From assembly GCA_030737835.1 (NCBI GenBank), contig JAUJYN010000012.1, forward strand, positions 960,688 through 1,024,687: a DNA stretch of 64,000 nucleotides, written 5' to 3'. Under the pieces are notes generated by a model. It searched no databases, was not told the DNA's origin, and saw nothing but the letters and a program-made list of their open reading frames with translations. The stretch's first letter is position 1. Every line of letters begins with the position of its first letter. This DNA comes from Acorus gramineus. Taxonomy: Eukaryota; Streptophyta; Magnoliopsida; Acorales; Acoraceae. Positions 26,002 through 56,780 of the stretch are shown here, one piece after another. Both the position numbers and the translations under genes were made by a program.

Positions 26002-28439
26002 CGATTTGTCATGCCCCAGGGCGGCGTCCCCGAGACGTGGCAATGCATAAAGTATCAGCTATCAAGTACAAGAGGTCAACAATGACTCCAATAAATAACA
26101 CACAAGCTGGCAAAGCAATGATAACTGATAACTCAACTGAAAGGCGGAAGCATAAAAATATCAATAAGTCTGTAAATCAAAAATATCATTACAGACTCGA
26201 ATACACAATCAATGTCCTGTGAGAGCCAAGTTTAGTCCAAATAAAATACAACCCGTGCCACGTGAACTATTTACAATACATAAAATGAATCTAGGACTGC
26301 TCACAGCCTCACACTCGTCACCCACTGGACAAAACTTTCCACGCACATAAGACCACGTCACAGGGAAGCTCTAGCTCCACGCCCAACACTGTCCCTGAAA
26401 AGAAACAGTATGCGAGGGGTGAGCTACAAGCTCAGTGAGTGGCTGGAAACCAATCACCATCACAACAGTTCAATGTTAAGGCAATTTCTTTTCAAGGAAA
26501 ACATGGGTGGAAACCCAATGGATAACAAGGTCACGTGGCGGCGCGACCAACCTCACCCTCGCTCCCAGAGGGAGACTCTTGGGACTCTTGGGGATAGACC
26601 ATACTGTTGGTCGAAGAGACGCGGAATTACTAGTCTACACAACACTACTGGATCATCTACATCGAGATAACTGCTCAACGATATCTTTGAACATCGATAC
26701 ATAACTGGACCCAACAACTATGGGAATGGACGAAAACGAATGGGTCAGGCGGTGACGTGACTTCACCTCATCCTCACCCTCACCCCTAAGGGTGACACAG
26801 GACTGTTGAAAGAAAATCTTTTGTTCTACACCCTTCGTCATCCAGTAGCCCTCTCCCGAGTAGCCTCTACCTGGTATACTCCCATGATCAGTACATTTAC
26901 CGAACGCATCGGTAGTACCTACAGGTGGGAGCCCTCTGTCAGGACAGCTTTAACGTCGGGTAGCTTCAATGCGGATCCGAAGAAGGGGAGAACGATTCCA
27001 CGCTTGCAATATCATCCGGTAGCCCTCTCCCGCGTAGCCTCTACCTGTCGACCTTCCACGATCGGTACATCAGCCAGATGTGTACCGCGATACGCATCAG
27101 TAGCACCTACAAGTGGTGGCACCCAAACAGGACAGCTTCGACGCTGGGGTGTTTCGACGCACGACAATGTCGGGATGACACACCCCATGTTCGCAAAGCG
27201 AACCCTATAGAGAGTCAACTACGCTCGATAATCACATATCGATGATATTGAATACTCTTGTACTCCCACACGGGTGCGTCGCTCAGACGCGAGGGGTTAC
27301 CTCTGCTCTCACGCAGAAATAAGCCCAAGGCATATAACCCAACAAGCAGTTCATATACACACCTAGCACGGGTAGGCCTAACTTAATGCCATAGCCATCG
27401 GTTTAACAAAACCGATACAACAAATGAATTCTCTTGAATTCCATTCAAGTGCATCTCACGGATGCAGGGTGGCGATTATATCGCTCGCGCTCTAATTAAT
27501 AAGGTACATCCCGACAGCGGATTGTACCCACACCTATTTCAGATAGGCCTAATTAGCTTTAACATGCGCATATATATTACAGGAGAATTATATCTTAGTT
27601 ATGTACATGAACTACATGCACGATAACATATCAATTAATTATAGGGATATTCCCTAACATGGATAAAAAGCATAAACAATTCACATATCATGCATGGCTA
27701 AATAATATGCATACAAGCGTGCAAGCATATAAGCATACAAGGAATACCCTAAAAATGCGTTGGATATAATCAACTTAAAAGGGAAGGGTCAAGCGCGATC
27801 TCGTGCACTAACAGGTGCATGCCAATATTCCAGACGAACCTGAGTCGAGTAGGAAATCACATCTATTTACTCAGTTCGTACAAAGGGAGAGGGCGAGAGA
27901 GAGCTCATCATCTCTTGAAGTTGGTCATAGCTTTGCCCCATTAGCATGGACGCAACAACTACACCACGCCCTCGAGTCTTATCGCAATGGAATATTAGGA
28001 ATATGCTCGTTATTAACCCAGACTTAATCATATTGGACATTCCAATTAATATGGTAGTATTACTCATAGGGACTACCTAAGACATACTTATTCTATACAT
28101 TTGTGAAAACACACATCACACATGCCCATACATGAAGGGCGCATGCATACATAATAATTCACACATGAATATGATACATAGGCAAGTATATGGTAGAAAA
28201 AGGGGTTCTATGCAATATACGAGCTATACAAGCCTAGCATGCAAATATCTAGAATATTTAGGGTGCAAAGAAGCCCTATGGATGAGCGATGCACGACTAC
28301 GTGCATCGAGCGCACCCCGAAGGGTTGGATCGAACCACTCACCGCAACCCGGGTCGATGCGTGACCGATCGCCAAGATCTGCAAGACAAGGGTATCCAAT
28401 TTGGTGAGTAAAATCCCATTAAAACACTTAGAATTTAAC

Positions 28440-31659: not shown

Positions 31660-33701
31660 AGAGCATCATCAATTCATCATCAACCGAAGCGAATTTGAAT
31701 TCGAATTTGAATATTAGTTAGGATAAATATGAAGTTTGTTTGTGATTTATTAGTTAGAATTATATATGAATTTCTTTGTGATTTTCAAATTTAGAAAATC
31801 TGTTAAAATTCTATTTAACATATTTAGATAAGCAGTTAATATTAAGGATTCTCTCATCTATAAATAGACTTGTAAATCATATTATGAATTCAGATTATTG
31901 ATTATTAAAGTTTCTTTATTTTATCTACTGTATTTTGTTATCCTAGGAGGATTAACATCTACATAGAGTTTCAATCATCTGGTATTTCGTAAAAAATCAA
32001 CAAATCTTTGAAGCCCAACGTCTTTGGTATTCTGTTTGAAGAATCAACAGCGTCGCTGAAGCCTGTGAATTCGTGTATTCGATCGAATTAGCAGAAGAGC
32101 GTATTCGTACGCTGCATCAGTTGGTCTCAGTGCCTCGTCGATTCGTCGAGGTAATCCGTGATCCATCTCATTTATCCGAGAAAAAAAAAGAAAAAAAAAA
32201 AGAGAGAACATGTCGCTGAGAAGACGTCCTCTTAGCGACACCTACGACCGTGAGGAACATCAACAAGCCATCGCAGCAGCTAACAAGAGCATGGATAAAA
32301 AAATTGAAGCACTCACGTGACAGATGGAGGTGATGATGGCATTTATGCAATGTCATGAGCGATCTCCAACTCCACGACCTCGATCGCCAGCCCCACGATC
32401 TCCAACAACGCTATCTGAAGTGGATGATTCTATTGATAGTGATTTTGATAATCCGTTCGAAGAGACGATCCGTCCATCTATCTTCAATGAAGATGAAGAG
32501 ATTGAAGAGGCAAAACATTTCTTCGATGAAGATGAAGAGATTGAAGAGGAGAACTTTTCACCTATCTTTGATGAAGAGATTGACGATGCGAGACTTCCAC
32601 ATATTTTTTATGCAGAGATCGAGGAAACAGACCTTCCACCTGTCTTCGATGAAGAGATGGAGGAGATGGAGTCTAAGAGTTCCCCTCAAATACTTCTTGT
32701 CTTTCTCTACTGCCTCTCATCATAGCTTTTCCACCACCAAAATCATTAACACCCACATATTTTACGTTACTGAAGCTTCATCCAAATCTTTCCCGCTAGA
32801 CCCCTTTCAAGTCACTCATACCTCTTCACCATCGTAAAAGCTATCACATGAAACATTTAACCCACTCTACCATCATTTTGTTGATTCATTCTTTCCATCC
32901 TTCATTTTTCCTCATCCACCACCCCTTCTCAGGAGGTTATTACTTGAAAGTTGGATTTGTGAGCATTGGTTCGATTTGATGGATGTGATGTAGTATCCTA
33001 AAAGATTCGTTGTTTGTAAGAAATCCATATCTGAAGTTTATGGTGACAATTTTACAGATGAGGATTTGAATTCAAGGACGAATTCTCTTAAACCCGGGGA
33101 GAATGATGCAGCACGATCATGAACCGTTCGATTGGCATTGAGGACCATCAAATGGACAATTATAGATGATTTATAATTTTTACTATTTTTAGCAGTTTTA
33201 GAGTTTGTTATGATTTATTTTATTTGTTTTAGTTATTATATTTAGATTTGAATTTCAAATAATTATTTGAATTCGTATTTGAATGTTAGTAGTGATAGAT
33301 ATGAACTTTGTTTGTGATTTATTAGTTAGGATTAGATATGAATTTCTTTGTGATTTTCAGATTTAGAAAATCTATTAAAATTCTATTTAATAGATTTAGA
33401 TAAGCAGTTAAGATCCTAATATTTTAAGGATTCTCTCCCCTATAAATAGACTTGTAAATCATATTATGAATTCAGATTATTGATTATTAAAGTTTCTTTA
33501 TTTTATCTACTGTATTTTGTTATCCTAGGAGGATTAACATCTACATAGAGTTTCAATCATCTGGTATTTCGTCAGAAATCAACAGATCTTTGAAGCCCAA
33601 CGTCCCTGGTATTCTGTTTGAAGAATCAACAGCGTCGCTGAAGCCTGTGAATTCGTGTATTCGATCGAATTAGCAGAAGAGCGTATTCGTACGCTGCATT
33701 A
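31660..33701 (+). mobile_element. Short non-autonomous LTR retrotransposon (fossil)
   Basis: The right LTR (33104-33701) starts TGATGCAGC and ends with its inverse. The left LTR ends at 32119 (GCTGCATCA) and is followed two bases later by TGGTCTCAGTGCC, a primer-binding site close to the initiator-tRNA-Met type. A purine tract (CCCGGGGAGAA) precedes the right LTR. The ~1-kb interior encodes at most a glutamate/aspartate-rich Gag-like stretch (about 32210-32725) and no polymerase. The element is broken, with unequal LTRs. The family is probably Ty3/gypsy, at low certainty. Confidence 0.75.
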
Positions 33702-37545: not shown

Positions 37546-40500
37546 TGTTATACCTGTGTCATTTGGAGCCTTATTTTTTTATCGGAGTCGCTAAAATTTT
37601 AGCTTTTAGCTACCTGCGGGAGTTGGAATACTTTGATTGAAAATCTAATTGTATATTATGGGTCTTGGTACCGTCTTGTAATACCCATAAAAATTTCATC
37701 GAATTCGGGTATTGTTTCAGAAAAATATGCAGTTCCAATCGCATTCGGGTTTGGTCGTTACTGGTTTGGGAGGTGGGATTTCATGTGCACGTCTAAATGG
37801 GGGTATTGACCAAGTCTTGATGTTTTGTTTTCTTTCTTGGTTAGGTTGACTTGTCAACCCATCCCACCAACCCCCTTTATTCATGATAAATGCCCCCCTT
37901 AAGTGAAAAACCCCTCTCTCTCCCTCCCAACCCATCCGACCACTTCCCTTCCTTTCCCCTCTTTTGCTTCCCTTTGTGTTGGAAAAGAAGATGGTGAAGA
38001 AGGAACATGAAGGAGGTGGATCAAGTAGAGAAGATGATTAAGGTGTGTGTGTGTGCATTCATGTTGTTGTTGTTGTTGATTCTCCTCTCCTTAGCTCCCT
38101 CTCATACCCCCCTTCATCCCTTGTTTTCAGCCATGAAAGGCTTGAGAAAATGCTGATGAGGTGGTGGTAGTGGTGGTTGTGGTTGAGGTGGTCGTGGGTG
38201 TATCGAGAGCCCCGCATCTCCCCATTTCCCTCCCCCTCTTTTGGTAAGGTAGATCTCTGCATTGTAAAGATTTATGTGAAACTAATATTTAGAGGCATAT
38301 TTTTGGGATTGTGTTCGCATGTGATATGATCATCTATGTGTCTAGTTGTTATATATGAAATTTGGTGTCATTATGATATATGTGTTGTAAGTTATAACCT
38401 GATTTGCAAGGCCTGTCCAGATTCGTGGGGGAATTGACCAGTTTCTGGAAATATTTTAGTTCGGGCTTGTAGAGGCAAAATTAGGTTATAATGTCTTCAA
38501 GGATTATGATCCCAGCATGTCAAAGAATGTGTATGATTTATTTCATAATTTTGGGATGTGTATTTGGTGCTGTGGAGATCGAATAGTAGAGCTGGTTGCA
38601 GCAGGTTTAGCAGATTTGCTCGATTGCGTGTCAAGGAGTTGTTATGCATGTTGTGGAAAATATCAGGAGTTAGGGTCTTCATGAAGTAGGCCTATACGTG
38701 TGTCAGGAGGTTCCATATTTTAATTATGGATCATTGGTTGTGTTTTGCAGATCTTGTAGACCGGATGCGCTGCGATCCGGGTATCATTGAATGGTTTGAT
38801 TTAACCCTTCAGGAAGCGTTGGATGCACGTAGTCGTGCGTCGCGTATCCGTTGGGCACCCTGACTATACTACTTATTTAGATAAGTAGTATGGTCATGTC
38901 TAACCCATAATATGCTAGATATTTGCATGCTAGGTTAGTATAGCTCGTATATTGTGTAGAACCCCCTATTCTACCATATGCTTGCTTATGTATCATGTTC
39001 ATGTATGAATTATTATGTTTGCATGCGCCCTTCATGTATGGGCATGTGTGATGTGTGTTTATATGAATGTATAGAATATGCATGCCTTAGGTAGTCCCTA
39101 TTTATAGTACTACCTCCCTATGTTAGTAATATCTAGCATGATTAAACTTGGGTTAATAATCGGGTGCATACTTAATATTCCCTGGTCATAAGATTGGAGG
39201 ACGTGGTATGGTTGTTACACTCATCTTGTTGGGGCTATGACCAGCTTCCGAAGAGGATGAGACTTTCCCTCTCTCTCGCCCTCCCTCTTTGCGTAAACTG
39301 AGTAAGTAGATGTGACTCCTACTTGACTCAGGTCCGCTTAGGATTATCGGCAGGCACCGGTTGGTACGCGAGATCGCACTTAACCCTTCCCTCTTAAGTT
39401 AGTGATACCCAACGCATATTAGGGTAATGCTTGTATGCTTGTATGCATATTAGTTAGGCCATGCCTGGTATGTATGTTGTATATATATATATTGCTTATG
39501 TTTTATCCATGTTAGGGAGTATCCCTATAATTAATTGTTATGTTATCGTGCATGTAAGTTCATGTAAATAACTATGATATAATTCTCCTGTAATGTATAT
39601 GCGCATGTTAAAACTGATTAGGCCTATCTGAAATAGGCGTGGGTATGACCCGCTGTCGGGTTGTACCTTATTAGTTAGAGCGCTAGCGATGTAATCGCCC
39701 CCGTGCATCCGAGCGATGCACTCAATTGAAATTCAGGATAATTCATTATATTATCGGTTTTGTTAAGCCGTAGTTATGGCATTAAGTTAGGCCTACCCAT
39801 GTTAGGCGAGTGTATAAACCGACTGTTGGGTTATGCCTTAGGGCTTATCTCTGTGCGAGAGCAGAGGTATCTCCCTGCGTCCGAGCAACGCATCTGTGTG
39901 GGAGTTCATATGTATTCGATAGCATCGGTAGGCGATTACCGAGAGTAGTTGTTTTTCCATTAGGTTCGCTTTGCGAACATGGAGTGTTTCCTCCCAATGT
40001 CGTCCGTGTTGAAGCGGCCCGGGTTGTAGCTTATCTGACAGAGGGCCCCCACCTGTAGGTACTATCGATGCATGCGGCAAGATGTACTGATCATGGGGGT
40101 ATACCAGGTAGAGGCTACCCGGGAGAGGGCTAATGAATGATATTGCGAGCGTGGAATCGTTCTCCCCTTCATCGGATCCGTGTCGATGCTGCCCGGCGTT
40201 GTAGCTGTCCTGACAGAGGGCCCCCACCTGTAGGTACTATCGATGCATGCGGCAAGATGTACTGATCATGGGAGTATACCAGGTAGAGGCTACCTGTGAG
40301 AGGGTTACCGGATGATGAAGGGTGTAGAGCAAGCGGATTTATCCTAAAAGTCCCTAGGGTCACCCCTCCAGGGGCTAGGGTGAGGATGACTTGAAGTCAC
40401 GTCGTCACGTGATCCTAATACCCATAAAGTATACTCTGGGTATGCTACTCCTAACGCTTGATGTATCGTAATATAGCTCTGCCTCGTAGCGGAGGGACTA

Positions 40501-41362
40501 GTTGGTTAGGTTATCCAGTAACACTAGGTGTTATGGTTAACCTTTGCTTCTCCCCGGGTGTCCCAGGAGTTTCCCTTCGGGGCAGGGGCGGGGGATGAGT
40601 TGTAGTCACGTTGCCGCGTGACCCATTTGTTGTTCGTCCGTTCCCATAGTTATTGGGTCCGGTTATGTAATGATGTTCAAAGACATCGTTGGGCAGTTAT
40701 CTCGATGTAGATAATCCAGTAGTGTTGTGTGGATCAGTAATTCCGCATCTCTTTGACAAACGGTATGATCTCTCCCCAAAAGTCCCAAGAGTCTCTATCC
40801 GGGAGTGAGGGTGAGGGTGATATTGGTCGCACCGCCGCGTGACCTTGTTATCCATTGGATTTCTACCCATGTTGTTCCTTGAAAGGAATTTGTCTTAGTA
40901 TTGAATTGTTGTAATGGTGTTTGGTTTCCAGCCACTCACTGAGCTTGTAGCTCACCCCTCGCATAATGTTTCTTTTTTAGGGGCAGTGTTGGGCGTGGAG
41001 CTTCCCTGTGGCGGGGTTCGAGTGCGTGGAGTGTCCCGTCCGGCGGTTGGCGAGTGCGAGGATGTCAGCAGTCCTAGTGTCATTTATGTATTTGAAATCG
41101 TGCGTGTTGCACTGGTTGTACTTTATTTGGACTAGACTTGGCTCTCACAGGACAGTGATTGTGTATTCGAGTATGTAATAATGTTTTTGGTTTACAGACT
41201 TATTGATATTTATATGCTTCCGCATTTTCGTTGAACTATCAGTTATCATAGTTTTGCTAGCTTTGTGTGTTATTTATTGGAGTCATTGTTAACCTCTCGA
41301 AATTGATAGCTGATACTTTATATATTGCCATGTCTCGGGGACGGCCGCTCTGGGGCGTGACA
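37546..41362 (-). mobile_element. Giant solo LTR (3.8 kb), copy 2, nested in element C
   Basis: On the minus strand it begins TGTCACGCCCCAGAG (at 41362) and ends GGTATAACA (37546). An exact 5-bp TSD CATGG flanks it (37541-37545 and 41363-41367). It aligns over most of its length with the solo LTR at 26007-29794 in opposite orientation, including the 175-bp tandem pair (starting near 40026 and 40201), but differs in the core (38260-38740). No internal retroelement region is attached. Confidence 0.8.
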
Positions 41363-41423
41363 CATGGGGCTTGGTTTGGGGCCTATAAAGTTGGGGGTTT
41401 GTGAATCATTATTGAATATATAA

Positions 41424-44492: not shown

Positions 44493-47400
44493 TCAATCTG
44501 GAATCCCTATATCGTCAGCTTTAGATTTTTTCCTCTTCTTTCCAATTTGGGGATCTTTCGCTTTCATTTCTTGAGAAAAGGACCTCAAGGAAGCAGCCAG
44601 ATCTTCGTTCCTATGTGCTGAAACCAAATAGAAAAAAAAGTATGTTTAAGTTGGATTGTCTACATAAAGCTATCCTTCAAAACCATCGAGAAAATGACAA
44701 AACCCTCATGAATCACTAGTTCACTATGACTACTTTTCTTTGGATCAGTTGTGGCTCTGATATCATCAGGATTAATGATTTGCATGCAGAGTGATGCTAA
44801 AACCATCTGTTGAATTTAATAAGATGGTAATTGGATACACATGTATCATCAATAAATTGCATGCGAAGTAATGCTAAATCTTTTTTTTTCTTCTTCTTCC
44901 TAGTTTTCATGTCTTACATCATATTTCCATCATCAGCCACAACTCTACAAGCAATACATCACACATTTCTTGTCCATCAATTTTTGGTTAACTATAACAA
45001 GCACCATCAACTATTAAAAATTTTCTCACTTACACTGCTGACCCATCAACTAATGGTCAGACATAACAACCACTTGATGAATGGGTACATATGGTACATA
45101 GATACAGAGGTCAAATCACTATTTTTTAAAATATGGATTTCTATAGAAAGATAAAATTATCATTAAAGGCTGGACAGAAAAACTTTACCTGAGAGAATGA
45201 CATCTTCCATGTTCACAGACTTCCGATTGGCATGCCGGGCAAATAGTTCTAAGTCCTTGGCCAACTGCTCTATATTTCATTAAGTCCATTAACCAGTATA
45301 GTAGCAGGAAGATGCACTTTAAAGTTGAAATGATATACACAACTAAAAAATAGTGAAAAAAACTCTATTGTGGAAGAAAATCAAACAATAAAACAGGAAG
45401 ATTGAGAAAATAATATGGGTTTATTGTTTGTTATCTGCATTGGATATCTAAATAGTTATACACAGTAGATAATTTGTAATGTAGTGGATAATATGATCAA
45501 CGGGTTGAAATTAAATTTGATTTACTAAAAGAAAACATGTGAATGGAATAAAAGAATATCATCTCTTCCGAGAAAATATTTCATTTCCTGGTTCTTTGTT
45601 CTCTCCTGCCCTTTAATCTTTTCTTCTTCCATTCAGACTAGCAGGGCAATGTGTATACCTGCTTCTCACTTACTTCAATATTGACAGAATTTCTGGAGTA
45701 TCTTAAATTTAAATTCTTAGGATGACACTATAATTAGTCTCTCCAAGGTAACTCCTAAATTCCATTTCTTTCTATGTTTTTGGTGAATTCTCAAAATAAC
45801 ACAGAATCATAAATAAATATTGATCAGTCCACCTCAAGTCGAGGTATTAGATTCTATCATCCGTGGCTAACCAAAATGATTACATGTTCTAAAACCAAAT
45901 GCTTTGGAGGAAATTCAACCCATGGACTGTATCTCTAACAGAGGGTTTGAGGCATATGTAACAATATTGCTGCTTTGACTGACCTGAGAATCTGATGCAC
46001 AGATGTGTAGACAGTTAAGCTAATTAAGATTTGTTATGGCAACCACTCAAAGAGCAACAAACAGCATGGTTCATATCTAATCACTCATTTAGTACAACTT
46101 GAGTTATCCTCATCAGCTAAATGAAGAGTTGTGATGTGCCAAACTCCACCTGTATATACCCATGAAAATTTATACCATGTATGAAACTCTGGGTGTATGA
46201 CTTTATTACTTTCAAAGCATTTAGGACTAGGCATGGATATATATTATACCAATATCCATTGGATGCCATTGTACATGATTTGGTCCTACTTATGGATTCA
46301 ATAGCTCGGCGTGGATTTCACTGGCTGAAGTTGTTTGACTCAAAAGGTTGCCCCTCTACGTGACTTAACTACCTTCGGACCGTTCACACTTCAACTCTTC
46401 GCTATCTATTTCCAGCTGACCTATGGTATTCTCCCACCATTCACGGATTCCCATATGTTCAATCATGGAAAAACATTTACATCCACATATTTAAAGATCA
46501 CTAAACCAACGAGTTTCTCAGATTCTGATCAGCCAGTTCACCACCCAATCAACTTCAGCCACACTTGAGTACTTGACATATTAACTATAAATATAACACT
46601 ACCTCATTATGCCACACCTATAATCTTCTCAACCAGTCCCTTATCTAATTCAATTTTCTATTACTGTTCTGTCTTTACGACTCTACCACCTAAGCTTCCT
46701 CTGATGCACTCATTCCTAACAAAAATCCGCTAAATAAAAGCCTGAACTGCAAAGTACGCTCGCAGATATACTAACTTCCTATAATAAACTTAAGTTTAAT
46801 AAGAAAATGTTGTTATCTTCATTCATCCAAAGAGAATGAATTCAATATCACAATCAACCCACCAATCCTTCACTACTCATTTCCAAACACAACCCCACCC
46901 ACTCTCTTATGAGTTTGCATAATGGGTTTCTCCTACCATGAACATATTATATGGTATTCAATGATTCTTATCAACCAAATCCACAAACCCAATCCAACAA
47001 TCCCCTCATTTGTAACTGTTAAAGAGTCATTATTAGAATAATATTATGTCTTTATTATCATTATTATTATATTATTAGTTTCCTAGTTTTCCTATATTCC
47101 TTTTCTGGTATTTTAGGGTTTCCTCTATGTATCTATAAATAGAGCATTTGACTCCTCTAATACAATAACAAGAATTCCTTTTCCTTTATTCTAACATGGT
47201 ATCAGAGCCTCCACCTCCACCTCAAAAATCCTAGATCCACAAAAGCTTCTCTTTCTCTTCCCTGCTTCGATTGAAGACTCTTCAATCGAAGCAAGGGAGG
47301 AATTTTGCTCACGAGATCTAAAAGCTCCACCTTACACTATCACGCACATTCCCACGCCTTCGCGCTTCTCTGCATATCGTCGCGCCCTGCCGTGCCCTGC

Positions 47401-49879
47401 CGACGTGCCCTGCCAACGTGCCCTGCCAGCCCTTCAGATGTGCCGTGCTCGCCCTGCCGTTGCGCCAAACGTGCCCTGCTGTGGCGCCCTGCCAGCCCTG
47501 TCGACGTGCCCTGCCAGCCCTGCCGTCGTGCCTTGCTGACAGACCTGCCAGCCCTGCCGTTGCGCCCTGCTGTGCCCTACTGGCTCGCCCTGCCATCCCT
47601 GTCGACAGTCCCTGGCTCGCCCTGCCAGCAGCCCTGCCGTCCAGCCCTACCAACCCTGCCGTCCAGCCCTACCAACCCTGCCATCGCGCCCTGCCGTGCC
47701 CTGCCGTCGTGCCCTGCGTGCCCTGCCAGCCCTGCCGTCGTGCCTTGTCGACGGACCTGCCGTTGCGCCCTGCCGTGCCCTGCTAGCCCTGCCGACAAGC
47801 CCTGCCTCGCCCTTCCAGCAGCCTTGCCGATGTGCCCTGCCAGCCCTCGCGCATCGCTGCCTGCCAGCCCTGCCAGGGCGTACCAGCGCTCCCGGATCTC
47901 CAGGGATCTGCACTGCCAGCGCTCCCAGATCTCGCTGGATTTGCCATGCCAGCGCGTGCCAGCGCTCCCGGATCTCTCGGGATCTGCCCTACCAGCGCGT
48001 GCCAGCGCTCCCGGATATCCCGGGATCTGCCCTGCCAGCGCATGCCAGCGCTCCCGGATCTCCCGGGATCTGTTCTGCCAGTGCGTGCTAGCGCCTGCCA
48101 GCAAGTGCCAGGCCGTGCAAGCGCCTGCCAGCGCTCCCGGGATAGTGCCCCGGATCTCCTGGGATCTTGCCCCGGATCTCCCGGGATCCTGTCCGGGACG
48201 CCTCCCCAGCGCGACCCAGCGTGCCCCATGTGCGTCCCGGAGCCACCCAGCGCACGCCACCACCCGCCAGCGTGCACCACCAGCGGCTGCCGCTCTCCTC
48301 TGCCGGCACCAATGTCCGCCGCCCTCCGGTGCCGCTGGCCACCGACTCCGGTCGCCGCCTCCCGGCGATCCTCCGGCCGCCCTCCGCCACCTCCGGCAAT
48401 CTTTCGGCCGCCCTTCGGCAATTCTCCGGCTGCCTGTCGCCACCACCAGCTGCCCTCTGCCACCTCCGACAGCCCTCGGCCGCCTCCGGCCTCTCTCCGG
48501 TGGCCCTTTGCCACCCTCGGTGATCCTCTGGCTACTCTCGACCATCTCCAGCCACCCTTCGGCGCTCTCCGCTGCACTCAGCCGCTCTCCACAGACCTCC
48601 AATGCATCCGGCCGCCCTCCTATGGCTCTGGCGGCCACCTCGGGATTTCAGAACACTAAATTGGATTTTATTTCCTATCTAAAGGTCCGATTAAGGTGTT
48701 CCAGGGGTCCGTTTCGCTCGATTTTTCATTCTCTATGCATCTGTGTGATTCTTTTCTTCATCCGAGATCTCTACGATCCTCCTCGCAGATTTGCACACCT
48801 CCGCGCATCTCCTTGCGGCATCGACCGCTCTCGCGCTCTTCGTGCAATCTCGCGACTCCTCTTGCTGCCTCTGCACATGTCTTCTTCTATGTGCGCTCTT
48901 TCTCTTTTCGCAGCATTGCGGCCGCCGCACACGTCTTCCTTTATGTGCGCCGTCCACGTTCCTGTCCTTGCCCCTCCCGCACCGTGCAGCACCCATGCCG
49001 CACCTCTGTAGCGCCCCTACCGTGCCTCTATTGCACCCCTGTCGCGCCCGCACGTGCCCCTGCTCCTTCTGCACGTGCCTCTACCGCGCCATGTGGCACC
49101 TCTGCAGCGTCGTGCCGTGCCTCACCCCACCGCTCGTCGCTGTCGCCAGCCTTCGCCACCTTCTCATTTTTGTGCAAACTCTAAGGGTTCTACCTTTCAG
49201 AGTTTGAGAGGGGGTGTTAAAGAGTCATTATTAGAATAATATTATGTCTTTATTATCATTATTATTATATTATTAGTTTCCTAGTTTTCCTATATTCCTT
49301 TTCTGGTATTTTAGGGTTTCCTCTATGTATCTATAAATAGAGCCTTTGGCTCCTCTAATACAATAACAAGAATTCCTTTTTCCTTTATTCTAACAGTAAC
49401 ATTTGTAACCCCAATCAAAACGATTCTCAAATCCTCCCCCAAAAAGAGTCCATTCTCAATTGAAATTCTTCTAAAAAACACAGTTTTAAAACATACCCAG
49501 ATGGAAAAAAAGCTTGGCAATCCATAAAAGCTACAGAAACACTGACATTCTATCGTTTTAAGCACAAATAAATCCAAAAGCCACTCAAAGATGAGATTTT
49601 TATCAAAATTTTACCAGAGAATTTGAAAGCCAAGTCTGCAATGCAAGAAACGACGGCTTCGGAGGCCTCCATGTCGTGCTTCTTAGCTGGGTCTCATTCA
49701 AGATTTTATTTTTTATTATATTTGTTTTTAAAAAAATTAGCATTTCAAAAACCAAAAAAAAAAATTTGAAGACCTTCGTTTTGGATGATTGAGATGGCGG
49801 AGAGCCTGAACCGGTCCTTCAGAAGCTCGGCCTTCTCGATATCGTCCTCCCTCTCTGTATCGCTCTCACCCCTCTCCAT
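44493..49879 (-). CDS. MHF1: MHF1/CENP-S-like histone-fold protein, four exons
   Basis: The product is predicted to be a 127-residue nuclear histone-fold protein that pairs with MHF2/CENP-X. The MHF dimer stimulates FANCM at stalled forks and, in plants, limits meiotic crossovers; in the CENP-T-W-S-X complex it contacts centromeric DNA. Coding exons: 49774-49879, 49615-49686, 45189-45269 and 44493-44617, all with GT-AG introns and consistent phase. An in-frame stop upstream of the ATG at 49879 fixes the start. Residues 16-40 contain LLKDRFRLSAISII; 41-59 EAVVSCIADLAFKF; 60-76 EQLAKDLELFARHANRK; 77-90 SVNMEDVILSAHRN. These match the helices of the CENP-S fold. A basic tail (GKKRKKSK) ends the protein. 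Intron 2 is 4345 bp and holds an LTR element. The identification rests on recalled family motifs; no search was run. Confidence 0.88.
47017..49395 (+). mobile_element. Small young LTR retrotransposon with GC-rich interior
   Basis: Two LTRs of 180 and 181 bp (47017-47196 and 49215-49395), each TGTTA...TAACA, differ at three positions. An exact 5-bp TSD GTAAC flanks them (47012-47016 and 49396-49400). TGGTATCAGAGCC (47197-47209) is the initiator-tRNA-Met primer site typical of plant Copia, and a G-rich polypurine tract (GAGAGGGGG) precedes the right LTR. The interior is C/G-rich low-complexity sequence and encodes no Gag or Pol that I can recognise. It is non-autonomous yet structurally intact. 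At common plant rates the LTR difference suggests an age under about one million years. Confidence 0.9.
47390..48200. repeat. GC-rich tandem repeats inside the small LTR element
   Basis: 47390-47870 repeats the word CCCTGCC(A/G)(G/T)CC in irregular units. 47870-48110 repeats units of about 45-50 bp containing AGCGCTCCCGGATCTC followed by GGGATCTGCC, with many CCCGGG palindromes. Because the repeats rarely contain stop codons, long frames stay open in five of six readings. One of these spans 47305-49011 but has no domain and is best seen as a by-product. Confidence 0.8.
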
Positions 49880-51785: not shown

Positions 51786-54700
51786 TGTTGTGAATATGGT
51801 GGATAACCACCACTTCTCTAACCTATAACCTCCCCCACTCTTCAACTCCATAACCTCCCCCACTCTTCTATTCCATTAACACTCCCATTAGTGCCCCACT
51901 ATCTCCCCCTCACCTCTATAGACTTGTAACTCTCCACCTTTGGGATTCCTCTATGCACCCTATAAATAGAGGGGTTCTCTCTTGTATTCAAACAACAAAT
52001 AGTGAATAACAATCTCTCTCTACTTCTCTTCTCTATATACTTGTGTGCTTTGTTTATATACTCTTATATATCATATTCTATTTAGTTTACAACACGTTAT
52101 CAGCACGAGAAGCTCTTTGTTAAAGAGAAAGGTTTGTATCGATGGGTTCTTAATGATCTATATCAAAAAATATACTCTCCTTTGATGTTATGTATTTTTA
52201 TGTAAATCATCTACTACATACATATGATTAATTTTTTTTTTTCAATATGCATGGAACCGTATGAAAATTATCAAAATTTTTCATACATATGTTATGATAT
52301 GATTAATTTATGAAAACTAGTATGCGGCATCTATCATTTGATTATTTATTTTTCATGTAACTGTTTCATGTTTGTCATCTTTTATTAAAATTTAAATATT
52401 ATACATCTATGTGTAGAACCAGAAGTTCTCACAAATATCAATTAATTTGATATTTATATTTGATTTGAAATTCATTTTAATGTTACAATGTCATGTGTCC
52501 CTATAGGATCATACAAAAATTGTAATTACATGGATCCCTGAAGGATCATGTAGAAGTTATGAATAATGTGTTCCAATTAAGACCATGCAAATTTTATTCT
52601 ATCCCTGAAGGACTACAAAAAATTATTACATGGATCCTTGAAGAATCATGTAAAAGATATGATTAAAAATGTCCCTGAAGGACTATGATTATATTGTAAG
52701 AATCATACAAATTTTATTTTATTTTATCCCTGAAGGACTGTACAAAAATTATGATTATATGAGAGATAGTCCGCATGCAGTACGAATATGATGAACCAAA
52801 GACCTTATCCACACGCATTCCCGGCTTGCTTCGTGGAGTGCAAGAATCTCAGAGTGGTTAGAAGACGTGGCGACCAAAGTCTGTTTCGTAGATCGCCAAG
52901 AGATTGCTGTGCCACCGCAAGTGAATACATAGCCTGTTTGTGAGCGAGCCTTGTGAGGATCTGAAAGATATCCTGAATCTGCATAACCCTTTAGTTGTGC
53001 ACCATTATTGGAATCCTTTGCATAGAATAGACCCATGTCTGACGTTCCACGAAGATAACGAAAAATGTGCTTCACACCATTCCAATGCCTTCGAGTTGGT
53101 GCAGAGCTAAATCTGGCCAATAAATTAACTGAAAATGCAATGTCAGGTCTAGTGCATTGGGCCAAATATAATAAGGCACCAATTGCACTAAGATATGGTA
53201 CTTCAGGACCAAGAAGATTTTCAGTATCTTCTTTTGGACGAAAAGGATCCTTTTTGGGTCAAGTAACCTTACTACCATTGGAGTACTTAATGGATGACAT
53301 TTGTCCATATTAAAACGCTTCAGGATTTTTTCAACATATGGTTTGATGAACAAGTATCCCATTTGAACTTTGCTCAATTTGCAAGCCGAGACAATATCTT
53401 GTTTTTCCAAGATCTTTCATTTCAAACTCCTTTTTCAGATATTCGGAAGCCTTTTTGAGCTCTTCAGGAGTCCCAATTAGATTAATATCATCAACATATA
53501 CTGCAATAATGGTAAATCCGAGTTCCATTTTCTTAATAAATACACAGGGGCATATTGGATCATTGACATATCCTTCTTTTATTAAGTACTCACTAAGACG
53601 GTTATACCACATTCGTCCAGATTGCTTTAATCCATACAAGGATCGTCTTAACTTTATTGAGTACATATTTCGTGGTTTTGCTTCAGGCAATTTTAGTCCT
53701 TCAGGAACTTTCATATAAATGTCGGTATCTAATTTTCCATATAAATATGCAGTAACCACATCCATTAGCTGCATGTCAAGTCCTTCTGAGACTACAAGAC
53801 TAATTAAATACCGAAATGTGATTGTGTCCATCACAGGAGAATATGTCTCTTCAAAATCTATCCCAGGTCTCTGCAGGAAACCCTGTGCCACAAGACGAGC
53901 TTTGTATCTAACAATCTCGTTTCTTTCATTTCGTTTTCTCGCAAACACCCATTTACATCCTACTGGTTTAACACCTTCAGGGGTTAGGACTACTGGTCCA
54001 AATACTTGGTGTTTTGCAAGTGAATCCAATTCTGTTTGAATAGCAGCTTTCCATTGTGGCCAACAATTTTTTCGTCTGCATTCATCCACTGAACGTGGTT
54101 CTAAATCATTATCTGAAATGATTTCTGTAGCTACTGCAAATGAGAATATATCATCAACAAGCACTTGCTTTCGATCCCACAATATTTGTGAATTTGCATA
54201 ATTTATGGAAATTTCTTCATTTCCATGTACTTGTTCTTCATGCACGGGCGTCACTTCAGGGACGTCAGTCTCTTCAGGGACTTCTTCCTCTGTAGGAGTT
54301 ATTATTGTGGGTCTTTCAAGTGTTTCATACTCTTCTAGAGAATTATTCTTCATTGTTTTTCTCCTTCGGGGAGCTGAATCTTTTGAGCCTATAGGTCTTC
54401 CACGCTTCAGGCGTGTTTTTGTTGATTCATTAGCCGGCATATTAGCAGTTTTTCCTATTGGAACATTAATTCGAGCTGGAGTATTAGCAGCTGGAATATG
54501 TGATTTCATCACTTTTGCTGCATCATTGAATGCATCTGGCAATTGATGCGCAATTCTTTGAAGATGAGTGATTCTTTGCACTTCAGTTTCACATTGATTA
54601 GTGCGAGGATCAAGATGAGACAAAGATGGAGTTTTCCATATAAGTTCACGTCGTTCTTCTGGCGACGGATTTTCTCCCCCTAATGACGGGAATATTGTCT

Positions 54701-56780
54701 CATCAAAATGACAATCCGCAAATCGAGCGGTAAAAACATCCCCTGTCAATGGTTCAAGATATCTTATAATAGAGGGAGAATCAAAGCCTACATAAATTCC
54801 CAATCGACGTTGAGGGCCCATTTTAGTTCGTTGTGTAGGGGCAATAGGAACTTGTACAGCACAACCAAAAATTCGAAGATGTGAAATATTTGGTTGATGA
54901 CCCAGTACGAGCTGTAAAGGGGAATATTGATGATAAGCAGTTGGCCGAAGGCGAACTAATGCTGCTGCATGCAATATAGCATGACCCCAAGCTGAAACGG
55001 GTAATTTTGTCCTCAAAAGCATAGGACGTGCAATTAGCTGAAGATGCTTAATAAATGATTCAGCTAATCCATTTTGGGTGTGCACATGAGCAACAGGGTG
55101 TTCAACATCGATGCCATGCGACATACAATAGTCGTTAAAAGTTTTCGATGTGAATTCACCAGCTCCATCAAGACGTATTGACTTTATATGATAATCCGAA
55201 AAATGCGACTGTAATCGGATTATCTGAGCAAGTAGTCTTGCAAATGCAGCATTCCGAGTGGATAATAGACAAACATGCGACCATCTAGCAGATGCGTCTA
55301 TCAATACCATAAAATACTTGAATGGTCCACATGGGGGGTGGATTGGGCCACATATATCCCCTTGGATTCTTTGCAAAAATGTTGGTGACTCAACATTGAC
55401 TTTTGTAGGGGATGGTCTAACTATCAATTTTCCTTGTGAGCACGAAGTGCATTGATAGTGATTAGGTAAAAGAATCTTCTGGTTCTTTAACGAATGCCCA
55501 AATGAATTATCAATTATTCGACGCATCATTGTAGATCCTGGATGCCCGAGACGATCATGCCAAAGTGTAAAAATATCTGAATCATAGAACTTCTGGTTCA
55601 TTACAGCATATGATTCGATTGTTTTTATGGTTGTATAATACAACCCAGATGAGAAAGCATGAAGTTTCTCTAATACATGTTTTTGGCCTGAAACAATTGA
55701 AGTAATACATAAATACTCCATATTGTTTTCATTGATAGTCTCAATATGATATCCATTAAGACGGATATCCTTAAAACTTAGCAGATTTCTTCTGGATCTT
55801 GCTGAATATAATGCATCATTAATACAAAATTTTGTACCTCCTGGTAATATTATATTTGCTCTTCCGGAGCCTTCAATTAATTTCGTAGTACCAGAAATGG
55901 TATTAACATTTGCATTGATTAATGTCAATGTCGAGAAATATTGTTTATTTCGTAGGATCGTATGTGTTGTAGCGCTGTCTGCTAGACAAATGTCACCAAC
56001 CATAGCCATTCTTGTAAAAAAAGAAAATGAAATAAATAAGATAAAAATAAGAAAAATGGATTTTAGATAACAAAGAAAAATTATAATTATAAAAATTATA
56101 AAAGTCTGATCGTACATCAGGTACGTGACCATATTTTTAAAGCACCAAATACATAACAATCATTTTCCTTGTGTTAGGGGTTTGTTCTGCAACCCTTTTC
56201 CCTTCAATTATGCTTTTGTTTAATAGCAAATCACTTCTAGTGATTTGAGATATTTTACAAACTTTATGATTGTTGTGCTTTCTCAACTATATAAATCATG
56301 ATCTCATCATTCATGACCACAACTTCCATGGCGAACATAAAATAAAATGCATTTACTTCGGGTAATGATGCTATGCCATTAGCCGGCATATTAACAATTT
56401 TTCCCATTGGGTTTTCTAAGCAAGGTTTTAATGAGGCAATTTTCTTAGCGTGGTGGTCATCCAAGGGGGAGTGTTGTGAATATGGTGGATAACCACCACT
56501 TCTCTAACCTATAACCTCCCCCACTCTTCAACTCCATAACCTCCCCCACTCTTCTATTCCATTAACACTCCCATTAGTGCCCCACTATCTCCCCCTCACC
56601 TCTATAGACTTGTAACTCTCCACCTTTGGGATTCCTCTATGCACCATATAAATAGAGGGGTTCTCTCTTGTATTCAACCAACAAATAGTGAATAACAATC
56701 TCTCTCTACTTCTCTTCTCTATATACTTGTGTGCTTTGTTTATATACTCTTATATATCATATTCTATTTAGTTTACAACA
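51786..56780. mobile_element. Young Ty1/copia retrotransposon, broken, nested in element D
   Basis: Two 309-bp LTRs (51786-52094 and 56472-56780), TGTTGTGAA...TTTACAACA, differ at only two positions, so the insertion is young (well under one million years at usual rates). Near-matching 5-mers TATTT and TCTTT flank it. TATAAATA (51961-51968) in each LTR, a TTATCAGCACGAG leader after the left LTR and a purine tract (AAGGGGGAGTG) before the right LTR set the plus orientation for the frame of the element. The coding body (52755-56159) reads on the minus strand. It is broken by at least a few changes, and most of gag is not seen. Confidence 0.88.
52755..56159 (-). mobile_element. Copia pol body (protease, integrase, RT, RNase H remnants)
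   Basis: Domain order on the minus strand: protease-like LADSATTHTIL; GAG-pre-integrase LWHDRLGHPG; integrase with CTSCSQGK zinc-finger part, GDICGPI and DGAGEF; RT with KARLVAQGF, SLYGLKQSGRMWY and YVDD; RNase H-like SWRSTKQTLVATSS. This is the Ty1/copia order. The body is a fossil and opposite in orientation to the LTR pair. Confidence 0.9.

Follow-up and report, generated by a model that had tools for sequence, protein, structure and literature searches.

Does a small plant gene still make its protein when a young retrotransposon has entered its longest intron, and does the insertion alter its output? The question arises at a locus in a 64,000-nucleotide stretch of the Acorus gramineus genome (hereafter the window; C32:960688-1024687 of the assembly), in which an antisense LTR element lies in intron 2 of an MHF1 (CENP-S) gene. 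Breeders seek to change crossover rate, and MHF1 acts in support of a helicase that limits crossovers; a natural variant in the only intact MHF1 copy would, if true, be a usable breeding handle.

The MHF1 gene and its decayed duplicate

The 127-residue product is encoded by four minus-strand exons that join in phase across GT-AG borders, the TGA stop codon having its last base at 44493.

49774..49879, minus strand: MHF1 exon 1, from ATG to the phase-1 donor GAAG/gt (own-genome protein search, 9.1e-13)
49687..49773, minus strand: intron 1, gt..ag, 87 bp
49615..49686, minus strand: MHF1 exon 2 (own-genome protein match, 1.3e-7)
45270..49614, minus strand: intron 2, 4,345 bp, gt..ag (some 1.96 kb once the element and one copy of its target-site duplication are subtracted)
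45189..45269, minus strand: MHF1 exon 3 (CENP-S match above cut-off in the genome profile search)
44618..45188, minus strand: intron 3, gt..ag
44493..44617, minus strand: MHF1 exon 4 with the TGA stop (own-genome protein search, 3.3e-19)

This reproduces nearly to the base the model put forward in the sequence-only reading (four exons in phase with GT-AG borders, 127 residues, a stop ending at 44493), and the CENP-S/MHF1 identity proposed with it is borne out by the Pfam family CENP-S (PF15630), which the product matches with 69.5 bits where the cut-off is 28 (3.2e-19), and by a search of solved structures with Centromere protein S as the top match (E 1.2e-12). CENP-T_C scored 8.1e-9, above its own cut-off, and TFIID-31kDa 1.2e-4, below its own, placing the predicted product closer to CENP-S than to the other histone-fold families. 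The coding sequence is supported as a complete MHF1 (CENP-S) gene. The own-genome match to exon 2 runs on across intron 1 and carries two stops inside that intron because it is read straight through. The exon 1 donor (AAG/gtcttc) shows no strong fit to the consensus, which counts against an intact, spliced gene.

Copy number was assessed in the window's own assembly (398.6 Mb in 137 contigs). The CENP-S profile gave a single match in the whole assembly, to exon 3 of the gene in the window, with matches in two archaea among 14 control genomes. The MHF1 protein search (E up to 10) returned four matches in the window, which together span the four exons, plus a weak one on contig C5 (E 1.02). A better intact MHF1 elsewhere, which the sequence-only reading had itself named as the case that would tell against it, was not found in the assembly by an exon-by-exon six-frame search, in which the best candidates were scored and a strongly diverged copy could escape; nor was any second intact MHF1, the sole other match being the decayed one on C5.

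At about 16,560,900 on C5 the gene start and intron 2 are collinear with 43.9-50.0 kb of the window, and since both align in order the C5 match is, on this alignment, a true duplicate of the MHF1 locus, now decayed. More C5 blocks in the same order reach 61.1 kb of the window amid many dispersed-repeat matches. Exon 1 of the duplicate has a 21-base gap and exon 2 is eroded, with no counterpart of exon 3 in the alignment and nothing recognisable of exon 4 by tblastn. Together with the aligned intron 2, these exon losses indicate that a segmental or whole-genome duplication took in the MHF1 locus and that the other copy has since decayed. Between the window and C5 the K2P distance is 0.199 for exon 1 including its edge (98 sites) and 0.466 for intron 2 (1,215 sites in five alignable blocks picked by hand); the lower divergence of exon 1 would fit constraint in the past, though a single short exon is thin evidence. 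A chance origin of the gene model appears very unlikely because of the CENP-S family score and the recognisable decayed duplicate of the 5′ part of the gene. That the duplicate is a relic could suggest that the MHF1 locus in the window is likewise a pseudogene or an untranscribed relic, a reading that is barely credible against four intact exons in phase with GT-AG borders, a family-level score and a search of the assembly that found no better copy.

The anti-crossover role that had been ascribed to the product has genetic support in Arabidopsis, where the excerpted text of one study reports that crossovers are limited by MHF1 and MHF2 together with FANCM (PMC4132730), and an excerpted review refers to work in rice that reached the same crossover result (PMC11794483). 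The accompanying label of kinetochore factor fared less well and is doubtful for plant MHF1, CENP-S not being localised to kinetochores in Arabidopsis or the moss P. patens according to the portion of a study available (PMC12526889), with the same review, as excerpted, calling its plant kinetochore role ambiguous (PMC11794483). The profile of the partner CENP-X/MHF2 gave two matches above cut-off, both on C5 and covering only positions 37-74 of the 74-position profile. These two matches (C5:23496885 and C5:23533466) are separated by 36.6 kb and sit in stretches that share 98.1% identity over 3.1 kb, which points to the MHF1 partner having been duplicated recently, whole or in part. The profile for the MHF-binding region of FANCM (PF16783) had no match in the assembly, nor in any control genome, making that search uninformative.

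The LTR element in intron 2 and its family

The element runs in the opposite direction to the gene.

47017..49395, plus strand: LTR element, 2,379 bp, inside intron 2, antisense to MHF1
47012..47016: left target-site duplication, GTAAC
47017..47196, plus strand: 5′ LTR, 180 bp, holding TATAAATA
47197..47214, plus strand: primer-binding site, beginning TGGTATCAGAGCC, directly adjoining the end of the 5′ LTR
47197..49214, plus strand: internal region with tandem repeats, 2,018 bp, 65% GC
49206..49214, plus strand: polypurine tract GAGAGGGGG, directly adjoining the start of the 3′ LTR
49215..49395, plus strand: 3′ LTR, 181 bp
49396..49400: right target-site duplication, GTAAC

The LTRs end in TG..CA inside a target-site duplication, as in a two-LTR element, and the primer-binding site and polypurine tract both adjoin them, as in an LTR retrotransposon. 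The first 13 bases of the primer-binding site are identical in 10 other paired elements that were fetched, and TGGTATCAGAGC presumably fits initiator Met tRNA, a Ty1/copia-like primer site. The 180-bp and 181-bp LTRs differ by two substitutions and one 1-bp indel, and the right GTAAC ends at 49400, 214 bp from the splice donor, with intron 2 starting at 49614. Both results match the earlier description of a 2.4-kb element in intron 2, opposite to the gene and 214 bp from the donor, with LTRs differing at three positions. The core, much of which is tandemly repeated, has 65% GC, whereas the intron on either side has about one third.

A scan of five open frames in the internal region gave no Pfam match, and the gag-pol domains of an autonomous Ty1/copia element are not in evidence there. 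The plus-strand frame of the core (578 aa) is longer than any in 500 dinucleotide shuffles, whose maximum was 498, and this favours a real protein; the minus-strand frame (356 aa) has a length reached by 2 of 500, which goes against a conserved one. The frames that share its start in two related copies stop at 353 and 404 aa. A conserved gene in the core was rejected because of the shuffles that matched the minus-strand frame, the tandem repeats, the lack of Pfam domains and the shorter related frames.

The element belongs, by these sequence comparisons, to an abundant small family. Searches of the assembly gave 899 candidates for the LTR and 748 for the core, the best 40 of each being scored. 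Junctions of LTR end and primer site with at most one mismatch numbered 810 (430 forward and 380 reverse, against 0 and 0 for a reversed-pattern control), a count that may take in other families with the same junction. The 11 paired elements, window copy included, are 1.1-6.0 kb long with a GC-rich tandem-repeat core and have LTR distances of 0.0056 to 0.066, the window copy being tied second lowest among pairs of which the ten others were chosen with both LTRs among the best 40 of 899 matches, a choice that favours young copies. Identical 5-base flanks were present in 5 of the 11 LTR pairs, the remaining six differing by the automatic cut. An autonomous partner was sought in the frames of the three longest (5.1, 6.0 and 5.7 kb) of the 10 fetched pairs, in which no polymerase was recognised by eye, the frames consisting of core repeats and other sequence; one further copy checked proved to be another core-repeat copy. 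No partner was identified among these copies, the 18 unmated LTR matches among the 40 scored lying outside the search. Six family LTR/primer junctions lie in one direction within 15.2 kb at C1:14038980-14054170, two consecutive intervals between them measuring exactly 1,814 bp each, and this cluster is likely a tandem array.

When the element and one copy of its target-site duplication are removed, intron 2 of the window aligns on both sides with its counterpart in the C5 duplicate, where the matching place is without the element and the exact insertion site itself aligns poorly; at another place the C5 intron contains about 0.7 kb of additional sequence. Since the duplicate's intron aligns on both sides without the element, intron 2 is judged to have been long already (about 2 kb) before the insertion. 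The LTR distance of 0.0112 (2/180 sites) compares with 0.466 K2P for the duplicated intron 2, which would make the insertion roughly 2% as old as the duplication, a value that comes from two substitutions alone and is several-fold uncertain; the claim of a recent insertion is upheld by the same comparison. Arrival by ordinary retrotransposition is directly supported by the target-site duplication, the primer site, the purine tract, the near-identical LTRs and the duplicate's matching place without the element.

Other repeats occupy the window. A young minus-strand Ty1/copia element (51786-56780), in the same direction as MHF1, lies about 1.9 kb upstream of its start codon with the downstream LTR aimed at the gene. 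It has 309-bp LTRs that are 99.35% identical, 5-base flanks TATTT/TCTTT and a 942-aa frame in which RVT_2, SH3, gag_pre-integrs and Pol_BBD exceed their cut-offs with the integrase core just under; the fetched C5 duplicate matches it in one piece only, of 84 bases at 69%. An inverted repeat pair (26004-28264 and 38903-41365) is 80-85% identical, and a frame within it (26761-27210), without a Pfam match, resembles by eye one in a fetched copy of the intronic element's family (L045). Direct repeats at 31693-32117 and 33265-33699, 93% identical with starts about 1.6 kb apart, are possibly the LTRs of another small element and enclose an acidic repeat frame (32321-32725) without a Pfam match.

Consequences of the insertion for MHF1

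Some disturbance of MHF1 by LTR signals, through splicing, polyadenylation or antisense transcription, is possible because both LTRs present AATAAA on the sense strand of the gene and the TATA box of the 3′ LTR is aimed at exons 2 and 1. A promoter in the 3′ LTR could drive an antisense transcript over the promoter of MHF1 as well as exons 2 and 1 and so regulate the gene, and the presence of TATAAATA in all 30 fetched LTRs (loci being returned for 30 of the 40 scored, the window's two included), with the 3′ LTR facing these exons, speaks for this. A TATA match alone is not a promoter assay and young elements are usually silenced, leaving such regulation very unlikely. Lowered MHF1 output, by premature polyadenylation in intron 2 or by spreading of silenced chromatin, would make the locus a natural hypomorph with more crossovers; this is unlikely, if less so than antisense regulation. 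In its favour are the antisense AATAAAGG in both window LTRs and in 18 of the fetched set of 30, which includes those two, the distance of only 214 bp to the donor and the failure to find a second intact MHF1 in the assembly. Against it, in grass introns one class of small LTR elements, often intronic, is reported in an excerpted study to leave gene structure mostly unchanged, with some exceptions (PMC3281118). The combined proposal is that, through polyadenylation inside the intron or through antisense transcription, the element turns the only intact MHF1 into a natural hypomorph, possibly a polymorphic one, and thereby modifies meiotic crossover rate; it is very unlikely.

Most likely the gene still makes MHF1 and the element is removed together with intron 2, since neither exons nor splice borders are damaged and the insertion would leave with the intron. 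With good confidence, the locus is read as the only intact MHF1 found, its other copy decayed, with a young antisense non-autonomous LTR element in intron 2 and a gene that most likely remains functional, the element being spliced out. A segmental or whole-genome duplication would have been followed by decay of the second copy, and the element would then have entered the long intron 2 by retrotransposition. Splicing of intron 2 would discard it, and the MHF1 so produced would pair with MHF2, which has matches in the genome, and aid the helicase FANCM both in repair and in keeping meiotic crossovers down, as family and literature suggest. The arrangement would mostly be ordinary biology. What was shown here is modest, namely a correct model for a small multi-exon gene with evidence of its duplicate's decay, a polarity for the insertion from the counterpart that lacks the element, and an account of an element family that is high in copy number and has an odd, GC-rich core.

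Comparison with known systems

Cassandra elements carry 5S RNA sequence. For the element in intron 2 both 5S RNA and a hammerhead ribozyme, as in a retrozyme, were rejected, with no Rfam family at gathering score anywhere in the window, in which it differs from Cassandra. The closely spaced junctions on C1 suggest tandem arrays here too, like the Cassandra TRIM arrays described in the excerpted text of PMC7215508. With TRIM and SMART elements the present one has in common short LTRs, a 5-bp target-site duplication, a primer site and purine tract, an intron location and many copies, and neither has a recognised coding domain, such that in coding capacity it fits a TRIM. TRIMs are given as 500-900 bp in the portion of PMC3281118 available, a length exceeded by the window element at 2,379 bp and by all 11 paired elements of its family at 1.1-6.0 kb. 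Likewise, it has in common with LARDs a long internal region without recognised proteins, which in LARDs belongs to elements described as > 8 kb in the same excerpt (PMC3281118) against 2.4 kb for the window copy. The host gene has the histone-fold family and conserved core in common with Arabidopsis AT5G50930 (MHF1/CENP-S). Within the MHF1/CENP-S family the predicted protein has nothing unusual about it, and the difference at this locus is the insertion in intron 2, which its own duplicate lacks.
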